Shown here: piece by piece, positions 2,059-15,257 of the stretch | Numbering within the stretch: position 1 is the first letter of the stretch | How the letters are laid out: each line of letters starts with the position of its first letter | From: Caldisericota bacterium | GTDB lineage: Bacteria; Caldisericota; JANLFM01 | NCBI GenBank assembly: GCA_024655865.1 | Contig: JANLFM010000022.1 | Span: forward strand, 1 to 23,173 | Direction of reading: 5' to 3' | DNA length: 23,173 nucleotides | Made by a program: the position numbers and the translations under genes | The notes under the pieces: model-generated | Database searches by the model: none | What the model saw: only the letters and a program-made list of their open reading frames with translations | What the model was told of the DNA's origin: nothing

Positions 2059-2087
2059 TTGCCCTCCCGCCTCCTTTGTGCTAAAAC
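2059..2087 (+). promoter_or_regulatory. Possible glnA promoter (weak)
   Basis: TTGCCC at 2059-2064 and TAAAAC at 2082-2087 are separated by 17 bp. Each matches the sigma-70 consensus at four of six positions. It would give a leader of about 20 nt before glnA. No GlnR-type (TGTNA-N7-TNACA) operator was seen. This is a tentative call from spacing only. Confidence 0.25.
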
Positions 2088-2115
2088 CCTAAAAACCACT
2101 CAAGGGGTGAAATCG

Positions 2116-3444
2116 ATGCTTTCAAAGGAAGAAATCGAAGAAAGGTTAAAACTTGATGGGGTGCGCTTCGTCAATTTACAGTTTACCGATCTTGTAGGGA
2201 TGGTGAAGACCGTAACGGTCCCGGTGAAACAATTCATAGAAGAAACTATGGAGTACGGAACCTGGTTCGACGGTTCCTCCATTGAGGGTTTTGCCCGAAT
2301 CGCTGAAAGCGACATGTACCTCGTTCCCGATCTCGAGACCTACGCCCTCGTTCCTTGGGACAAGGGAGAAAACACCACTGCTCGCTTTATCTGTGATGTC
2401 TACACCCCGAAGGGAGACAGGTTCGAGGGAGATCCCCGTTTTGTCCTCACAAAGGCCATTAAGGCAGCCAGGGAATTAGGTTATGAGTACAAGGCGGGCC
2501 CGGAAATGGAGTTCTTTCTCTTTAAATCCCAACCGAACGGCGAGGCCTTAGCTCAGCCGCACGACCGCGCCGGGTACTTCGATGTCTCCACAGACCTGGC
2601 CTCCCATGTGCGCCGCCAGATGGTGAACGCTCTCCTCTTTTTCGGCATCCAGGTGGAGGCTCATCACCATGAAGTGGCGGTGGGACAGCACGAGATCGAT
2701 TTCCGCTATGCCGATGCCCTGCGCACCGCTGATAATGTGGTCACCTTCAGGTTAACCGTGAAGGCTGTAGCTCAGATCAACGGCCTCTACGCCACTTTCA
2801 TGCCCAAGCCCATTTTTGGAATTGCGGGATCGGGAATGCATGTGCACCAGAGTTTAACCGATGTCCAGAGTGGTAAAAACTTATTTTTTGACCCCCAAGA
2901 TCCCTACATGCTCTCCCCGCTGGCTCGCAAATTCATCGCCGGACAGCTCTATCATGCCCGTGGGATGTGTGCCATCCTCGCTCCGCTCGTCAACTCCTAC
3001 AAGAGATTAGTAGCAGGTTATGAGGCTCCGGTTTATATCTCCTGGGGTTCCCGAAACCGCTCCGCTTTAATTCGCGTTCCCAGAATCAACCCTCGTAAAC
3101 CGGATGCTGCTCGCTTAGAGCTTCGCTGCCCTGATCCTTCTTGCAACCCTTACCTGGCTTTGAGCGTGATGCTGGCCTGCGGACTGGACGGAATAAAGAG
3201 GGATCTTTCTCTCCCCGAGCCAGCCGAAGAGGACCTCTATCATTCCCAGATCAACCAGGACTTGCCTAGGCTTCCGGGCTCTTTAAATGAGGCTTTGATG
3301 GAGCTCCAGAAGGACGAAGTGGTCAGGGAAACCCTGGGAGAACACGTCTTCCAGCGATTCCTGGAGGCTAAGACCCAGGAGTGGCACGAGTATCGGTCCC
3401 AGGTTACGAGCTGGGAAATCGAACGTTACCTCCCAGTGTTTTAA
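2116..3444 (+). CDS. glnA: Glutamine synthetase type I (alpha-type)
   Basis: A 442-residue glutamine synthetase making glutamine from glutamate, ammonia and ATP in the cytoplasm; the usual form is a dodecamer. The N-terminal beta-grasp domain holds W-F-D-G-S-S-I-E-G-F. The catalytic domain holds the metal-ligand strand G-P-E-M-E-F-F-L-F, the H-H-E-V-A-x-G-Q-H-E-I-D-F segment, the ATP-binding loop K-P-I-F-G-I-A-G-S-G-M-H-V-H, N-R-S-A-L-I-R-V-P and N-P-Y-L-A-L. Length and the uninterrupted core fit the alpha subtype (Firmicutes, Thermotogae, archaea), which is usually feedback-regulated and not adenylylated. Start: ATG 2116, five bases after GGGGTGA; the longer open frame from 2059 is rejected because family N-termini begin near LSKEEIEERLK. 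The stop codon abuts palindromic repeat copy B. No other nitrogen-regulation gene is adjacent, so it is probably a single-gene transcript. Confidence 0.97.
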   Translation: MLSKEEIEERLKLDGVRFVNLQFTDLVGMVKTVTVPVKQFIEETMEYGTWFDGSSIEGFARIAESDMYLVPDLETYALVPWDKGENTTARFICDVYTPKGDRFEGDPRFVLTKAIKAARELGYEYKAGPEMEFFLFKSQPNGEALAQPHDRAGYFDVSTDLASHVRRQMVNALLFFGIQVEAHHHEVAVGQHEIDFRYADALRTADNVVTFRLTVKAVAQINGLYATFMPKPIFGIAGSGMHVHQSLTDVQSGKNLFFDPQDPYMLSPLARKFIAGQLYHARGMCAILAPLVNSYKRLVAGYEAPVYISWGSRNRSALIRVPRINPRKPDAARLELRCPDPSCNPYLALSVMLACGLDGIKRDLSLPEPAEEDLYHSQINQDLPRLPGSLNEALMELQKDEVVRETLGEHVFQRFLEAKTQEWHEYRSQVTSWEIERYLPVF

Positions 3445-10584: not shown

Positions 10585-10884
10585 ATGCCTGTTGCGGAAA
10601 TCAGCATAATTCCTATAGGCACTGGATCTACCAGCCTTTCGGACTTTGTGGCTGAGGCCGTGAAAGTGATTTCCAAAAGCGGTCTGAAATACGAGCTCAC
10701 CGCCATGGGTACCAATGTGGAAGGCACGCTGGCCGAGATCCTTTCCTTAACGCAAGAGGTCCACCAAGCTGCTTTGCGTATGGGGGCTCAAAGGGTCCTT
10801 ACCACCGTAAAGATCGATGACCGCAAGGATAAAGAGTTAACCCTGAAGGGAAAGGTGGAGGCGGTTAGAAAGAAGATCGCTTAA
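10585..10884 (+). CDS. MTH1187/YkoF-type thiamine-binding protein (UPF0045)
   Basis: A 99-residue ferredoxin-fold protein of the UPF0045/MTH1187 family. It opens with V-A-E-I-S-I-I-P-I-G-T-G and continues with Y-E-L-T-A-M-G-T-N-V-E-G, both family signatures. Relatives (YkoF) bind thiamine or its pyrimidine precursor, and MTH1187 is a small oligomer. Start ATG 10585 follows GAGGTGA. Its stop codon TAA shares its last base with the A of the next ATG (TAATG, 10882-10886), so translation is coupled to the dehydratase subunit downstream. Thiamine is not a known dehydratase cofactor, so its role in this operon is unexplained. Confidence 0.85.
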   Translation: MPVAEISIIPIGTGSTSLSDFVAEAVKVISKSGLKYELTAMGTNVEGTLAEILSLTQEVHQAALRMGAQRVLTTVKIDDRKDKELTLKGKVEAVRKKIA

Positions 10885-11861
10885 TGAGCAAGGCTCTCTG
10901 GAACTGCTCCTACCTTCCTTTAGAACTCCCTCTGGCTTTTGAGTTCATGCCGGTGCGCATGACGGGGAAAACAGGGACAACTCCCCGCGCCGATCGCTTT
11001 CTCCCGGTGAACCTTTGCTCTTATGCCCGGTCGTTCCTTGAGGAGTCTTTATTAATGAAGGATGAGAGCGTCTTTCTCCTCGCGGACTGTTGCGATTCCG
11101 TGCGTCGCCTGGCTGATGCCCTGGAGCACGAATTTCCCGGAAAGGTCTTTCTCCTCTTTCTTCCCCGCTCTCAAGATAACTGGGAATTCTTCCGGGAGGA
11201 GTTAAGGAGGCTTCAGGGTTTCCTCTCACAGTTAAAGGGCACCAGTCTCAAGGATGGTCAGATTCTTGAGGCCACAGAAATCGTAGCTCAAAGGAGAGAG
11301 CGTTTTCGGGAATGGGAAGCTTTAAAAAGAGAGGGATTGATCAGGCCGCTCGATTACTTCCACGCCCTTCAGGCCCTGAACGATTTTTCCCAGGATCTTG
11401 AGCCGGTAAAAGTAAGTCCCTCAGGGGGAGCCAAGGTCTTCCTTTTAGGGACTAATCTGGACGACGAAGAGGTCTGGGAGATTTTCGAGGAGCTGGAGCT
11501 CAGGATCGTGGGAGATGACCTCTGCTATGGGGAAAAGCAGGGCGAGATCTCCTGCGGGTTCAGCAGAGGGGATCCTCTGGAGCCTCTGGCCCTGAGCTAT
11601 CTTTCCCGGCCACCTTGCCCGCGCATGAGAAATTTGGAAGAGCGCTTTAGTGATCTCCTTCAAAAGATCGAGGAAAGAAAGGTAGATGGCGTTCTCCTTT
11701 TCCCCACCAAGTACTGCGACTCCTTTTTCTACGATCTTCCCCTGCTCCACGATATGTTGAGAGAAAGAGGAATACCGTTTGTGGTTCTAGAGCAGGATTA
11801 CTCCCAGAGGCCCGCCGAACAATTGAGGACAAGAATTGAGGCCATGCTGGAGAAAAAATGA
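10884..11861 (+). CDS. 2-hydroxyacyl-CoA dehydratase-family Fe-S subunit (first)
   Basis: A 325-residue member of the HgdB/FldB/BcrC superfamily, in which a [4Fe-4S] cluster receives one high-energy electron from the activator. Cysteines at family positions: C45 (P-V-N-L-C-S-Y-A-R-S), C69/C70 (D-C-C-D-S-V-R-R) and C278 (T-K-Y-C-D-S). D-D-L-C-Y-G (C214) resembles the second-domain motif. The C-terminus E-Q-D-Y-S-x-R-P-A-E-Q-L-R-T-R-I-E-A-M matches the conserved family tail. It is shorter than classical HgdA (~470 residues). It overlaps the genes on both sides (TAATG before, ATGA after), so it is part of a coupled operon. The substrate is unknown: no CoA-transferase or acyl-CoA dehydrogenase gene is nearby. 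Atypical double-cubane relatives are possible but unproven. Confidence 0.87.
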   Translation: MSKALWNCSYLPLELPLAFEFMPVRMTGKTGTTPRADRFLPVNLCSYARSFLEESLLMKDESVFLLADCCDSVRRLADALEHEFPGKVFLLFLPRSQDNWEFFREELRRLQGFLSQLKGTSLKDGQILEATEIVAQRRERFREWEALKREGLIRPLDYFHALQALNDFSQDLEPVKVSPSGGAKVFLLGTNLDDEEVWEIFEELELRIVGDDLCYGEKQGEISCGFSRGDPLEPLALSYLSRPPCPRMRNLEERFSDLLQKIEERKVDGVLLFPTKYCDSFFYDLPLLHDMLRERGIPFVVLEQDYSQRPAEQLRTRIEAMLEKK

Positions 11862-13069
11862 ATCTGGGCAACTTCGTTCAAGCGAAACTTCAGGATGGCT
11901 CCGCTATAAGGCTTTTGCGTTCTCCTTGGATTTACCGCTTCCTTTCCCTCTTTTTGAGAAGCCAGAGTCCGAGCGTCCGGTTTTCCTTTCACCTTGCCCG
12001 GGACGCCTATCTTAAAAGGAAGCCCGTGGCCTTTACCTCCCTCTTTTTCCCCACTGAGCTGGTGTACGCTCTGGGAATGGTCCCCTTCCCGCTTGAAGTA
12101 ATAGCAGCACTCATCTCTTCCATGGGGATGGCAGTGCCCTTCCTGAAAAAAGCTGAGGAGGAGTGGTATTCCCAGGATCTCTGTTCATTTCATCGCCTGG
12201 GCATGGGACTTGCCCTTCAAGACTACCTTCCTCAACCGGACGTCGTCCTTTCCCTGACCAGTCTCTGCGATGGTTCCCACCGTTTCTTTTACAACGTATC
12301 CCGCCTTTTCAAGGTGCCCCATTTTTTGATCGAGGTTCCGGGGAACGGCGGAAAGAAGGATCAAGAATACGTAGTAAGGCAGCTTAAGAGAACAAGGATG
12401 GAACTTGAAGCGCTCCTTGAAAGAAAAATTAAAAAGAGCGATTGGGAGGATTCCCTGGGATATTCCAATTCTTTAAGGGAAGAGCTTTTAAAAATTTACG
12501 AGCTCCAAGCGCATGTGCCTTGCCCGGTCTCCGGGGAGGCTGCCTTAGGAAACGTGGGCCTGATCTTCACCTGCGCAGGAAGCAGGTGGGGACCGGAACT
12601 CATCTCGGCCTGGAGAAAGAGCATTAGGGAAAACGCCAGTTCCGAAAATTACCGTCTCTTCTGGCTGCACCTTCGCCCATATTATCCGGCTCCGATCTTC
12701 GCTTTTTTAAAAGAAAGAGGAGTCTCCATCGTGGGGGATGAGCTTTCCAATTATATCTGGCCTCGGCTTGATCCCAAAAATCCGGAGCTCAGCCTGTCCT
12801 CTAAAATTTACGCTAACTTTGGTCTGGGGCCAATCAAAAACAGGATAGATAACATCGTTCGCTTGGTCCGGGAGAGAAAGGCGCAAGGGGTTGTCAACTT
12901 TTCTCACCGGGGGTGTCGACAGAGCACAGGAGGAGCTTTCCTCTTAAAAGAGGCCTTGAAAGAAAAGGGAATCCCGTGTTTGATATTGGACGGCGACTGT
13001 GTGGACCCCAGGGAATTAAACTGGGAACAGATGAGAACTCGCATAGAAGGATTCTTGGAGATACTATGA
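11858..13069 (+). CDS. 2-hydroxyacyl-CoA dehydratase-family Fe-S subunit (second)
   Basis: A 403-residue homologue of the preceding gene, presumably the partner subunit of a heterodimer. The N-terminal domain has T-E-L-V-Y-A-L-G-M-V-P-F-P-L-E, typical of the HgdB-type entry helix. Cysteines follow in family order: C109 (Q-D-L-C-S-F-H-R), C137 (S-L-C-D-G-S) and C353 (H-R-G-C-R-Q-S-T-G-G). The tail I-L-D-G-D-C381-V-D-P-R-E-L-x-x-E-Q-M-R-T-R-I-E-G-F-L-E is a strong signature. Start ATG 11858 overlaps the upstream stop by 4 bp, and its own stop overlaps the activator start by 4 bp (13066-13069). The enzyme should be cytoplasmic and oxygen-sensitive. Confidence 0.88.
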   Translation: MNLGNFVQAKLQDGSAIRLLRSPWIYRFLSLFLRSQSPSVRFSFHLARDAYLKRKPVAFTSLFFPTELVYALGMVPFPLEVIAALISSMGMAVPFLKKAEEEWYSQDLCSFHRLGMGLALQDYLPQPDVVLSLTSLCDGSHRFFYNVSRLFKVPHFLIEVPGNGGKKDQEYVVRQLKRTRMELEALLERKIKKSDWEDSLGYSNSLREELLKIYELQAHVPCPVSGEAALGNVGLIFTCAGSRWGPELISAWRKSIRENASSENYRLFWLHLRPYYPAPIFAFLKERGVSIVGDELSNYIWPRLDPKNPELSLSSKIYANFGLGPIKNRIDNIVRLVRERKAQGVVNFSHRGCRQSTGGAFLLKEALKEKGIPCLILDGDCVDPRELNWEQMRTRIEGFLEIL

Positions 13070-13836
13070 GCGTTTACTGTGGGCTGGATATCGGATCACT
13101 TCAAGCTAAGGGAATCTTGCTCAGGGATGGACATCCTCTTTTCAGGACGATCTTCCCTACGGGCGGAAATGCTCCCGAGACGGCTAAAAAACTTTTTCAG
13201 GCACTCCTTGAGGGTGGAGAAATATCTTCTGACGAGGTAAAGACCATCGTGGCCACAGGATATGGAAGGATCTCGGTTCCTTTTGCCACAAAGACGGTGA
13301 CTGAAATTACCTGCCATGCACGGGGGATTGCTCATTTCCTTCCTCAGGCAAAGACCCTCATCGACTTGGGCGGGCAGGATTCTAAAGCCATCCGGCTGGA
13401 GAAGGGAAAAGTAATGGACTTCGTGATGAATGACAAGTGCGCTGCGGGGACGGGCCGTTTCCTGGAAGTTATGGCCCAGAACTTCAAGCTCACTCCCTGG
13501 GAGCTGGGAGAACTTTCGCTTCAAGCTAAGAATGAAGTATCCATTTCCGCAACCTGCACCGTCTTTGCGGAATCGGAGGTCATTGGCCTGATTGCCAGAG
13601 GACTTCCCAGAGAGGAGATCGCCCGGGGAATCATGTCCGCCATCGCCCAGAGGATAGCAGGAATGGTGCATCGCCTCGGCTTGGAGGAACCGGTAGCCAT
13701 GTCCGGCGGTGTGGCCCAGAATCCCGGAGTGGTAAAAGCCCTGGAAAGGGAGCTGGGGGTGAGCATCTTGATCCCCGAAGAACCTCAGATGATTGGTGCC
13801 TGGGGAGCAGCCCTCATTGCTCAAGAGTATGCCTGA
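13066..13836 (+). CDS. 2-hydroxyacyl-CoA dehydratase activator (archerase)
   Basis: A 256-residue ASKHA-fold ATPase of the HgdC/YjiL family that injects an electron into the dehydratase using ATP hydrolysis. L-D-I-G-S-L-Q-A-K-G is the phosphate-1 loop, I-D-L-G-G-Q-D-S-K is phosphate-2, and A-M-S-G-G-V-A-Q-N-P-G is the adenosine motif. The two cluster cysteines are C125 (M-N-D-K-C-A-A-G-T-G) and C164 (S-A-T-C-T-V-F-A-E-S), 39 residues apart as in Acidaminococcus HgdC; a homodimer holds one [4Fe-4S] between subunits. Start ATG 13066 (ATGA overlap); the longer frame from 12913 runs inside the upstream gene and is not used. It overlaps the next gene by 8 bp. Confidence 0.95.
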   Translation: MSVYCGLDIGSLQAKGILLRDGHPLFRTIFPTGGNAPETAKKLFQALLEGGEISSDEVKTIVATGYGRISVPFATKTVTEITCHARGIAHFLPQAKTLIDLGGQDSKAIRLEKGKVMDFVMNDKCAAGTGRFLEVMAQNFKLTPWELGELSLQAKNEVSISATCTVFAESEVIGLIARGLPREEIARGIMSAIAQRIAGMVHRLGLEEPVAMSGGVAQNPGVVKALERELGVSILIPEEPQMIGAWGAALIAQEYA

Positions 13837-14788
13837 ACTGATTAAAGACAAAATTCAAGGAGCCTTAATAGGCTTCGCGCTGGGTGATGCCCTGGGAATG
13901 CCTGTGAGGGGTTTTTCTTCCAGGGATGCCAACCTATTCTTTAAAGACGGGATCATGCCCAAGGATGGAAAGGACCTCAAGGCAGGACAGTTCACCTCTC
14001 ACACTTTGATGCTCCTTGCCGCCACAAAGAGCTTCCTTGAGCGGTTCACATTTGATCCGGCAGACGTTGCTCAAAAAGTTCTGGAAATTTACGAAGAGGG
14101 ATTGATCAGAGGGATGGGTTCAAGTACACAGGCTGCCTTAAAGAGGATCAAGAGAGGAATTCCCTGGCACCAGGCGGGAGATTATGGACCCCTTGCCATA
14201 GGAAGAGGCGCTCTGATGCGCGTTCTGCCCGTGGTGCTCTGGACCCTCAAGCGTCCCGAAGAAATGCGTGAGGCTGTGGCCACCGCCACCATGATCACGC
14301 ACCAAAGCGATGAGGCTATTGCCAGCTCGGTTGCTTTCGCTATTTCCATCCAGGAGGCGATTCGGGGGGAAATTGGGGACTTCTTCCATAAGTGCTTGCG
14401 GGAAGTCAAAGGGACAAGGGCCTACTTCAAGCTTAAACAGGCGGAAGAGCTTTTCAAACGCAGGGTCACCCCGAACGAGGCTATTCAGACCCTTGGTAAT
14501 TCTGGAGTTGCGGCGGAAGTGGTCGCATCGGCCATTTATTGTTTCCTGTACTTCCCTTCCAGTTACCGGGATGCAATTTCGGGACCCTTGCTTGCAGGAG
14601 GAGATTCCTCGGCAATTGCGGCCGTAACTGGCGCCCTCTCGGGAGCGTATCTAGGCTTAAAGAAAATCCCCGCAGACTGGCTCAAAACCCTGGAAAGAAA
14701 AGAGGAAATCCTCGGCTTAAGTCAGAAATTTGCGGAATTAGTCCTTAATAATCAGAAAGGAAAGGACCCAGGGGAGGCTAATCCTTAA
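13829..14788 (+). CDS. ADP-ribosylglycohydrolase homologue with lost metal ligands (probable pseudoenzyme)
   Basis: A 319-residue protein with the full ARH/DraG architecture: K-I-Q-G-A-L-I-G-F-A-L-G-D-A-L-G-M-P (residues 8-25), G-A-L-M-R-V-L-P (127-134), T-H-Q-S-D-E-A-I-A, and G-G-D-x(3)-I-A-A-V-x-G-A-L-x-G-A-Y-L-G near the end. The two binuclear-metal motifs are altered. The usual T-D-D-T is T56-S57-H58-T59, and the usual G-G-D-T-D-T is G257-G-D-S-S-A262. Most magnesium ligands known from ARH/DraG enzymes are therefore missing, so hydrolysis of ADP-ribose is unlikely, while ligand or protein binding could persist. The ATG at 13829 overlaps the activator gene by 8 bp, linking it to the dehydratase. 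The stop overlaps the molybdoenzyme pseudogene on the other strand by 4 bp. Confidence 0.85.
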   Translation: MPELIKDKIQGALIGFALGDALGMPVRGFSSRDANLFFKDGIMPKDGKDLKAGQFTSHTLMLLAATKSFLERFTFDPADVAQKVLEIYEEGLIRGMGSSTQAALKRIKRGIPWHQAGDYGPLAIGRGALMRVLPVVLWTLKRPEEMREAVATATMITHQSDEAIASSVAFAISIQEAIRGEIGDFFHKCLREVKGTRAYFKLKQAEELFKRRVTPNEAIQTLGNSGVAAEVVASAIYCFLYFPSSYRDAISGPLLAGGDSSAIAAVTGALSGAYLGLKKIPADWLKTLERKEEILGLSQKFAELVLNNQKGKDPGEANP

Positions 14789-15257
14789 CCATATCGCTCT
14801 TCCTTCCAGGGATCGGCGGAGTTGGAATACCCCCTTTCCTCCCAGTATCCCAGAGTTTCTTTATCTAAAAAGCGGATTGTACAGAGCCACTTCAGGGACT
14901 TGTAAGCGTATTTCCCGGGAACAACCAGTCGTAGTGGTCCCCCATTTTCGGGAGGGATAGGCTTCCCCTCAAGGGAGTGTGCGATGATTGTGGGTTCCTT
15001 CCTCAAATAATCCAGGGAAAGGCTGGCAGTGTACTCGTTTTGCGCCTCAAAGAGAACGTATTTGACCTCAGGAAAGGGCCTGACTTCATCCAGGAGGCGC
15101 CGGAAATACATCCCTTGCTAAAGCGCAGTGGATTTTCCACCATTCCTTTTATTTCCAGGTACCAGATCTCCCTGGGAATTTTGGGAATGGGGCTTTCGAT
15201 GTGCAACGGGATGAGCCGATTTGATAGTTTCTGGCCAGGAGGAATCCTTTCTTTCAT
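14785..15257 (-). pseudogene. Broken sulfite-oxidase-type molybdopterin oxidoreductase
   Basis: The first frame (from ATG 15257) encodes M-K-E-R-I-P-P-G-Q-K, then W-Y-L-E-I-K-G-M-V-E-N-P-L-R-F-S. The family continuation resumes in another frame at about 15111 with F-R-R-L-L-D-E-V and includes P-P-E-N-G-G-P-L-R-L-V-V-P, Y-A-Y-K-S-L-K-W and G-Y-W-E-E-R-G-Y. The ~30-45 residues expected between them, including the H-C-V-T-x-W-S segment whose Cys binds molybdenum, are absent and the frame changes. Intact small SUOX-fold relatives have about 200 residues. The deletion plus frameshift destroys the active site. The ATG overlaps the HAD gene stop (ATGA), so it was once co-translated with it. A sequencing error could explain a frameshift but not the missing segment. 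Confidence 0.8.

Follow-up and report, generated by a model that had tools for sequence, protein, structure and literature searches.

A five-gene operon of Caldisericota encodes a predicted ATP-driven double-cubane reductase next to a thiamine-binding family protein and a candidate ARH pseudoenzyme

A stretch of 23,173 nucleotides from a Caldisericota bacterium (positions 1 to 23,173 of contig JANLFM010000022.1, assembly GCA_024655865.1; hereafter the window) carries a run of five genes that starts with a MTH1187-type thiamine-binding family gene (thb), continues with two HGD-D subunits, A and B, and their activator ATPase, and closes with a protein of the ARH fold (Table 1). We show that A, B and the activator, which we call the core, fall in a large, so far uncharacterised clade within the class I benzoyl-CoA reductase / 2-hydroxyacyl-CoA dehydratase superfamily, and argue that they probably form a single reductase. 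The original prediction, made from the letters of the window, had the five genes overlapping by 1, 4, 4 and 8 bp, and the open reading frame coordinates agree with this. The genome concerned (G000) is 1.82 Mb long in 63 contigs, with 96% completeness, and the window is its contig 14; A and B are its sole HGD-D genes, a statement that, like the other genome-wide statements below, comes from single-family searches.

Table 1. Genes of the operon and altered motifs of its ARH-fold protein, in window coordinates
Feature	Position	Strand	Basis
MTH1187/TIGR00106 thiamine-binding family protein (thb), 99 aa, first gene of the operon	10585..10884	+	TIGR00106, PF01910
Subunit A, 325 aa, HadC/BzdN-like small subunit	10884..11861	+	PF06050 (HGD-D), 204 bits
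Subunit B, 403 aa, HadB/BzdO-like large subunit	11858..13069	+	PF06050 (HGD-D), 237 bits
Activator ATPase (acyl-CoA dehydratase activase), 256 aa from ATG 13066	13066..13836	+	BcrAD_BadFG/TIGR00241
ARH-fold protein (ADP_ribosyl_GH), 319 aa from ATG 13829	13829..14788	+	PF03747, 203.7 bits
TSHT codons (residues 56-59); TDDT in active ARH enzymes	13994..14005	+	alignments
GGDSSA codons (residues 257-262); GGDTDT/S in active ARH enzymes	14597..14614	+	alignments

The same five-gene order is found in three relatives. One of these, G001 (L030; JANLFL010000002, labelled Caldisericota), belongs to the genus of the window, and the others, G002 (L031) and G003 (two contigs, L032/L033), both labelled Coprothermobacterota, represent other genera of the same Caldisericota/Coprothermobacterota-like family. 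The overlapping starts, of the 4/8-bp type, are kept in these relatives, except that in G003 some 130 bp separate B from the activator. The window genome and G001 have flanks in common (endonuclease V upstream, a HAD hydrolase and a phosphate transporter downstream), and the flanks of G002 and G003 are unlike these. As order and overlap type persist despite genus-specific surroundings, the arrangement is not due to chance, and the five-gene operon is confirmed. In a further genome, G004, the contig stops within the same thb gene, and the operon may just be unassembled there. A search of the region around the operon with Rfam found neither a thiamine pyrophosphate (TPP) riboswitch nor any other family.

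Contigs were scanned with an alignment of B, with motifs including W269, H271 and GCRQ as search patterns; a scan with A as a single protein had given no match. The alignment recovered 80 loci, and A and B are encoded together in every one of them. The loci span Bacillota (including four Moorella), Atribacterota, deltaproteobacterial groups, Actinomycetota, Chloroflexota, Armatimonadota, Spirochaetota and Thermotogota, and 52 of the 80 have an activator near the core. Natural fusions of A to the activator (L117, L121 and L122, from Thermotogota and one other lineage) and of B to the activator (L108 and L118, from Thermodesulfobacteriota) argue that the three proteins are one machine. This bears out the earlier claim that the activator and two HgdB-like subunits are self-sufficient, as do the folds of the subunits, described below, and the TIGR00241 score of the activator (271.5 bits against a cut-off of 125.4). 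We also sought a universal neighbour of the core in the 80 loci; none is common across lineages, the flanks instead tracking lineage and often consisting of housekeeping genes. For example, in a Bacillota-like group (L061, L069, L089, L097, L098, L099 and L106) the core sits between clpX/lon/ysxC-like and bioY/birA-like genes, and in Atribacteria a QueG-like gene flanks it. The flank gene names ysxC, birA, bioY and QueG-like were read from the sequences and not obtained by family search.

The subunits carry the residues expected for two different metal sites. Six cysteines of A (Cys8, 45, 70, 214, 245 and 278) align with cysteines in the two structurally known double-cubane proteins, BzdN and DCCP. 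The full set of six is found in 66 of 69 full-length relatives, and the three others all come from Chloroflexota. HadC has no cysteine at the positions of Cys8 and Cys214 in the alignment. BzdN has six cysteine ligands on its [8Fe-9S] cluster, a cluster that 2-hydroxyacyl-CoA dehydratase (here abbreviated HAD) is described as having lost, and the chemistry of [8Fe-9S] and [4Fe-4S]-OH2 clusters has been described for BzdNO and HAD (PMC11971306). We predict a double-cubane [8Fe-9S] site at the six cysteines of A. In B, Cys109, Cys137 and Cys353 (equivalent to Cys95, 128 and 380 of BzdO) are kept in 74 of 74 relatives together with Glu80, which aligns with the catalytic residue Glu55 of HadB, and a catalytic [4Fe-4S] site is predicted there. 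The activator keeps Cys125 and Cys164 in its orthologues.

Trees and family models set the two subunits apart from the known groups. The AlphaFold models of the single chains are confident (pLDDT 93.5 for A and 94.1 for B). The fold of B is nearer to HadB (Z 44.4) than to BzdO (Z 40.3), and that of A matches BzdN (Z 35.6) and HadC (35.0) about equally, followed by DCCP (33.6). Trees of both subunits were built with references from HAD, benzoyl-CoA reductase (BCR), Bzd and DCCP, with Mbd added in the A tree only. In both, the window subunits group with the new family, outside the HAD/BCR/Bzd group (support of 96 in the B tree) and outside DCCP; the deep split of the A tree is weakly supported. 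Placement inside a known substrate clade, which the original prediction had named as a result that would speak against it, is not seen. Scores are far below the equivalog cut-offs of HadB and HadC (74.7 of 750 and 85.4 of 700 bits) and also far below those of BzdN, BzdO and BzdQ (66.9 of 453.8, 41.8 of 448.6 and 201.7 of 380.2 bits); the BcrA-D models are likewise unmatched at cut-off, and A reaches 124.7 of the 350 bits of the DCCP model NF040772.

The closest known layout is that of BzdNO(PQ). Both systems have two different HGD-D subunits, a small one with six cysteines and a large one with three, a pairing that by alignment corresponds to the pattern of class I benzoyl-CoA reductases, and both have an ATP-driven activase of the same family. 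However, the core lies in a separate clade with invariant residues of its own and without BzdO His131, a single activator gene stands in place of the P/Q pair, and the genome has no match to the downstream enoyl-CoA hydratase family. The (R)-2-hydroxyisocaproyl-CoA dehydratase HadBC with HadI also combines two subunits with one activator, and the three cysteines and the Glu55 position of HadB are shared, but the core subunits lie outside the HAD clade, and A has cysteines at the two positions where HadC has none. DCCP with DCCP-R resembles the core in the six-cysteine site and in its one ASKHA activator; it differs in being a homodimer from one gene, whereas here the six cysteines are in A only and B is a different subunit.

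The metabolic context was sought in the window genome, in which control families were matched. Neither ECH_1 (enoyl-CoA hydratase) nor Acyl-CoA_dh_M found a match, which makes known 2-hydroxyacyl-CoA fermentation or benzoyl-CoA ring reduction unlikely. It had been argued from the letters of the window that a lack of CoA-transferase and beta-oxidation genes speaks against ordinary amino-acid fermentation. That conclusion holds, on these missing matches and on the placement of the subunits outside the HAD clade. One of its grounds is wrong for the genome, since one CoA-transferase pair, of unclear type, is present on another contig.

We consider it probable that A, B and the activator constitute one ATP-driven electron-injection enzyme with a BzdNO-like layout that acts as a low-potential reductase. 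The six cysteines in A and the three cysteines and glutamate in B argue for a reductase built like BzdNO and not a fermentation dehydratase; the cluster types, the electron path and the choice of reductase over dehydratase are what we infer from them. The activator would be a dimer of ASKHA ATPases in which the Cys125/Cys164 pairs hold a [4Fe-4S] cluster between them. It would take electrons from ferredoxin and ATP hydrolysis would drive them into A, which would store them on its double-cubane [8Fe-9S] cluster and hand them to an aqua-[4Fe-4S] cluster at the three cysteines of B, with Glu80 as the proton relay. Reduction of the substrate would take place in B at very low potential. This substrate is probably other than that of BzdNO, as the core has its own clade and its own active-site residues (Trp269, His271, Glu295 and Arg354-Gln355).

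Several points weigh against such a reductase. The six-cysteine site of A was assigned by alignment and not from coordinates, since the text of PMC11971306 gives no numbering of the BzdN ligands, and in fold A is tied between BzdN and HadC. In three Chloroflexota loci (L110, L119 and L120, possibly also L115) B and the activator are kept while A has lost most of its six cysteines, several to Asp or Ser, so not every relative depends on the double-cubane cluster. The position of the catalytic His131 of BzdO is Ser140 in B, and histidine is not conserved there in the family. Finally, the family-specific conserved residues of B are W269, H271, E295, R354 and Q355, but part of the conservation of B (W269, H271 and G352-Q355) is biased, these motifs having been search patterns, and the conserved residues free of this bias are only E80, E295 and D138.

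Two other readings of the core have to be weighed. It is improbable, though not without precedent, that the core serves to activate some other metalloenzyme or cofactor by reduction, in the manner of the ATP-driven activation complex of methyl-coenzyme M reductase (MCR) known from methanogens (PMC12176620). The absence of a common metabolic neighbour among the 80 loci would fit this, and a methanogenesis marker 15 model also matches the activator, below its cut-off; that said, B retains the three-Cys/Glu catalytic site of the substrate-reducing relatives, and the core is without a linked client protein. Least probable of all is an ordinary, sequence-diverged (R)-2-hydroxyacyl-CoA dehydratase of amino-acid fermentation (HgdAB/HadBC type), for although B is structurally nearest HadB, HadC is the best PDB sequence match of A and ties with BzdN in fold, and a CoA-transferase pair exists in the genome, both subunits lie outside the HAD clade and far under the HadB and HadC cut-offs (75 of 750 and 85 of 700), the six-cysteine site is missing from HadC and the fermentation families searched are unmatched.

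The thb protein matches the MTH1187 family over its full length and well above the cut-offs (TIGR00106, 112.6 bits against 54.7; PF01910, 116.3 against 24.9), differing from it in its operon context with an iron-sulphur reductase, and in G001, G002 and G003, too, the gene precedes A. The family is common in the phylum in genomes without the core (41 of the 61 genomes searched have a match), and a second copy lies elsewhere in the window genome (C11). In one genome (G021) a MTH1187 gene stands in a thiamine-salvage cluster, fitting the family name, the gene identities there being read from sequence. None of the papers searched contained both '2-hydroxyacyl-CoA dehydratase' and 'thiamine-binding protein'. 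A link to pyrimidines through an NCS1-type permease (a weak match to an allantoin permease model) just upstream of thb in G004 was considered and rejected, as it is not kept in G002.

The ARH-fold protein shares its fold and a full-length family match with DraG, MJ1187 and ARH3, but has lost the metal-binding motifs. When aligned with these three proteins the window copy is without the di-magnesium acids (TDDT has become TSHT and GGDTD has become GGDSSA), and it reaches 84 of the 337 bits of the DraG equivalog cut-off. In G000 and G001 TSHT is paired with GGDSSA or GGDAPA, G002 has TAVT with GGAASL, and G003 has the canonical TDDT and GGDTDT. G003 also has a branch of 0.18 in the ARH tree, much shorter than those of G002 (0.79) and of the G000/G001 stem (0.67). 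The ARH tree supports a clade of G000, G001 and G002 (98/97), which the tree of A, B and activator rejects (approximately unbiased test, p 0.012); the two trees conflict, and the metal site may have been lost once or twice. Between G000 and G001 the nonsynonymous divergence (dN) of the ARH gene is 0.22, akin to the 0.21 of B, at saturated synonymous sites, which indicates that the gene is maintained; this saturation (of dS) makes the dN/dS ratio not computable for A, B and ARH. From its motifs the window protein is a pseudoenzyme candidate, and hydrolysis of ADP-ribosyl groups is an unlikely role for it. The best remaining guess is that in three of the four genomes a former hydrolase has become a putative ligand-binding or scaffold protein. 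An ADP-ribosylation control of the reductase in the style of DraG and nitrogenase, as once proposed for this locus, is accordingly a weak idea for the window copy, and only the G003 orthologue could be active.

Of the 80 loci, thb or ARH genes adjoin the core solely in L043, L044 and L113, all from the window's own family (L044 begins inside A, and its MTH1187 gene is on another contig, L033). The 77 loci outside the family, of which 64 have at least 1.5 kb upstream, 59 downstream and 50 on both sides, show no thiamine-binding gene at the core and no adjoining ARH gene; the single ARH found outside is a distant relative in L108, at a distance of some 4.5 kb. Both profiles detect remote members in other genomes, so this is not simply an artefact of sensitivity. 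The original prediction had made the two proteins part of the same system, and had named their absence from most orthologous loci as the outcome that would speak against it. Such an absence is largely what we find, although the linkage is conserved within the window's family. MTH1187 and ARH are late, lineage-specific accessory additions to the operon in one bacterial family.

What these additions do there may be read in two ways. They are possibly, if doubtfully, passengers that merely share a transcript: the linkage is confined to one family, and the ARH catalytic site has decayed in three of four genomes. Against this, order and overlaps persist across genera with differing surroundings, and the dN of ARH is similar to that of B at saturated synonymous sites. 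The alternative, which we regard as unlikely, is that MTH1187 (with a putative thiamine- or pyrimidine-like ligand) and ARH (with a putative ADP-ribose-like nucleotide) are functional subunits or regulators that jointly gate the ATPase. The fixed order with overlapping starts in three genera, the G004 contig break inside the same thb and the constraint on ARH despite its lost metal site favour such a role, whereas the confinement to one family, the negative riboswitch search and the many genomes with MTH1187 genes and no core do not.

Taken across phyla, the family of A, B and activator may represent another functional class of ATP-driven reductase with double-cubane/[4Fe-4S] clusters, apart from the dehydratases, the benzoyl-CoA reductases and DCCP, a proposal that we put a little short of even. 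The class would occur widely among strict anaerobes, its members at present being mistaken for 2-hydroxyglutaryl-CoA dehydratase or benzoyl-CoA reductase, and in the window's family would have gained the vitamin-binding protein and the ARH pseudoenzyme as partners. Very few enzymes are known to carry a double-cubane cluster, and for the archetype, DCCP, the physiological role is still described as unclear (PMC11971306). If true, the scope of ATP-driven low-potential chemistry would grow by a widespread, mostly uncultured family of heterodimers that bears the double-cubane cysteine signature. The family is also a practical annotation trap. Atribacteria carry it, and bcrBCD annotations in Atribacteria have been found to match hgdABC of organisms not known to degrade aromatics (PMC6776118). 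As Moorella species carry it too, these ideas are testable in cultured organisms.

A few further observations concern the surroundings. Adjoining the ARH gene on the reverse strand, a molybdopterin-oxidoreductase-like gene (14785-15257) is broken, its two ends lying in different frames and about 30 residues, including an FHCVTGW segment, missing relative to the intact 186-aa orthologue in L030; whether this is real decay or an assembly error is not decided. A glutamine synthetase gene lies near the core in the window (2059-3444) and in L051, L077 and L093, possibly by chance. Finally, five genomes of the same phylum (G020, G023, G040, G041 and G042; L038-L041) carry a different HGD-D set, made up of a small subunit, an HGD-D-like protein of larger size that lacks the third cysteine, and a fusion of an activator with a DCCP-like domain, and in G020 this set lies beside a methyltransferase-like gene.

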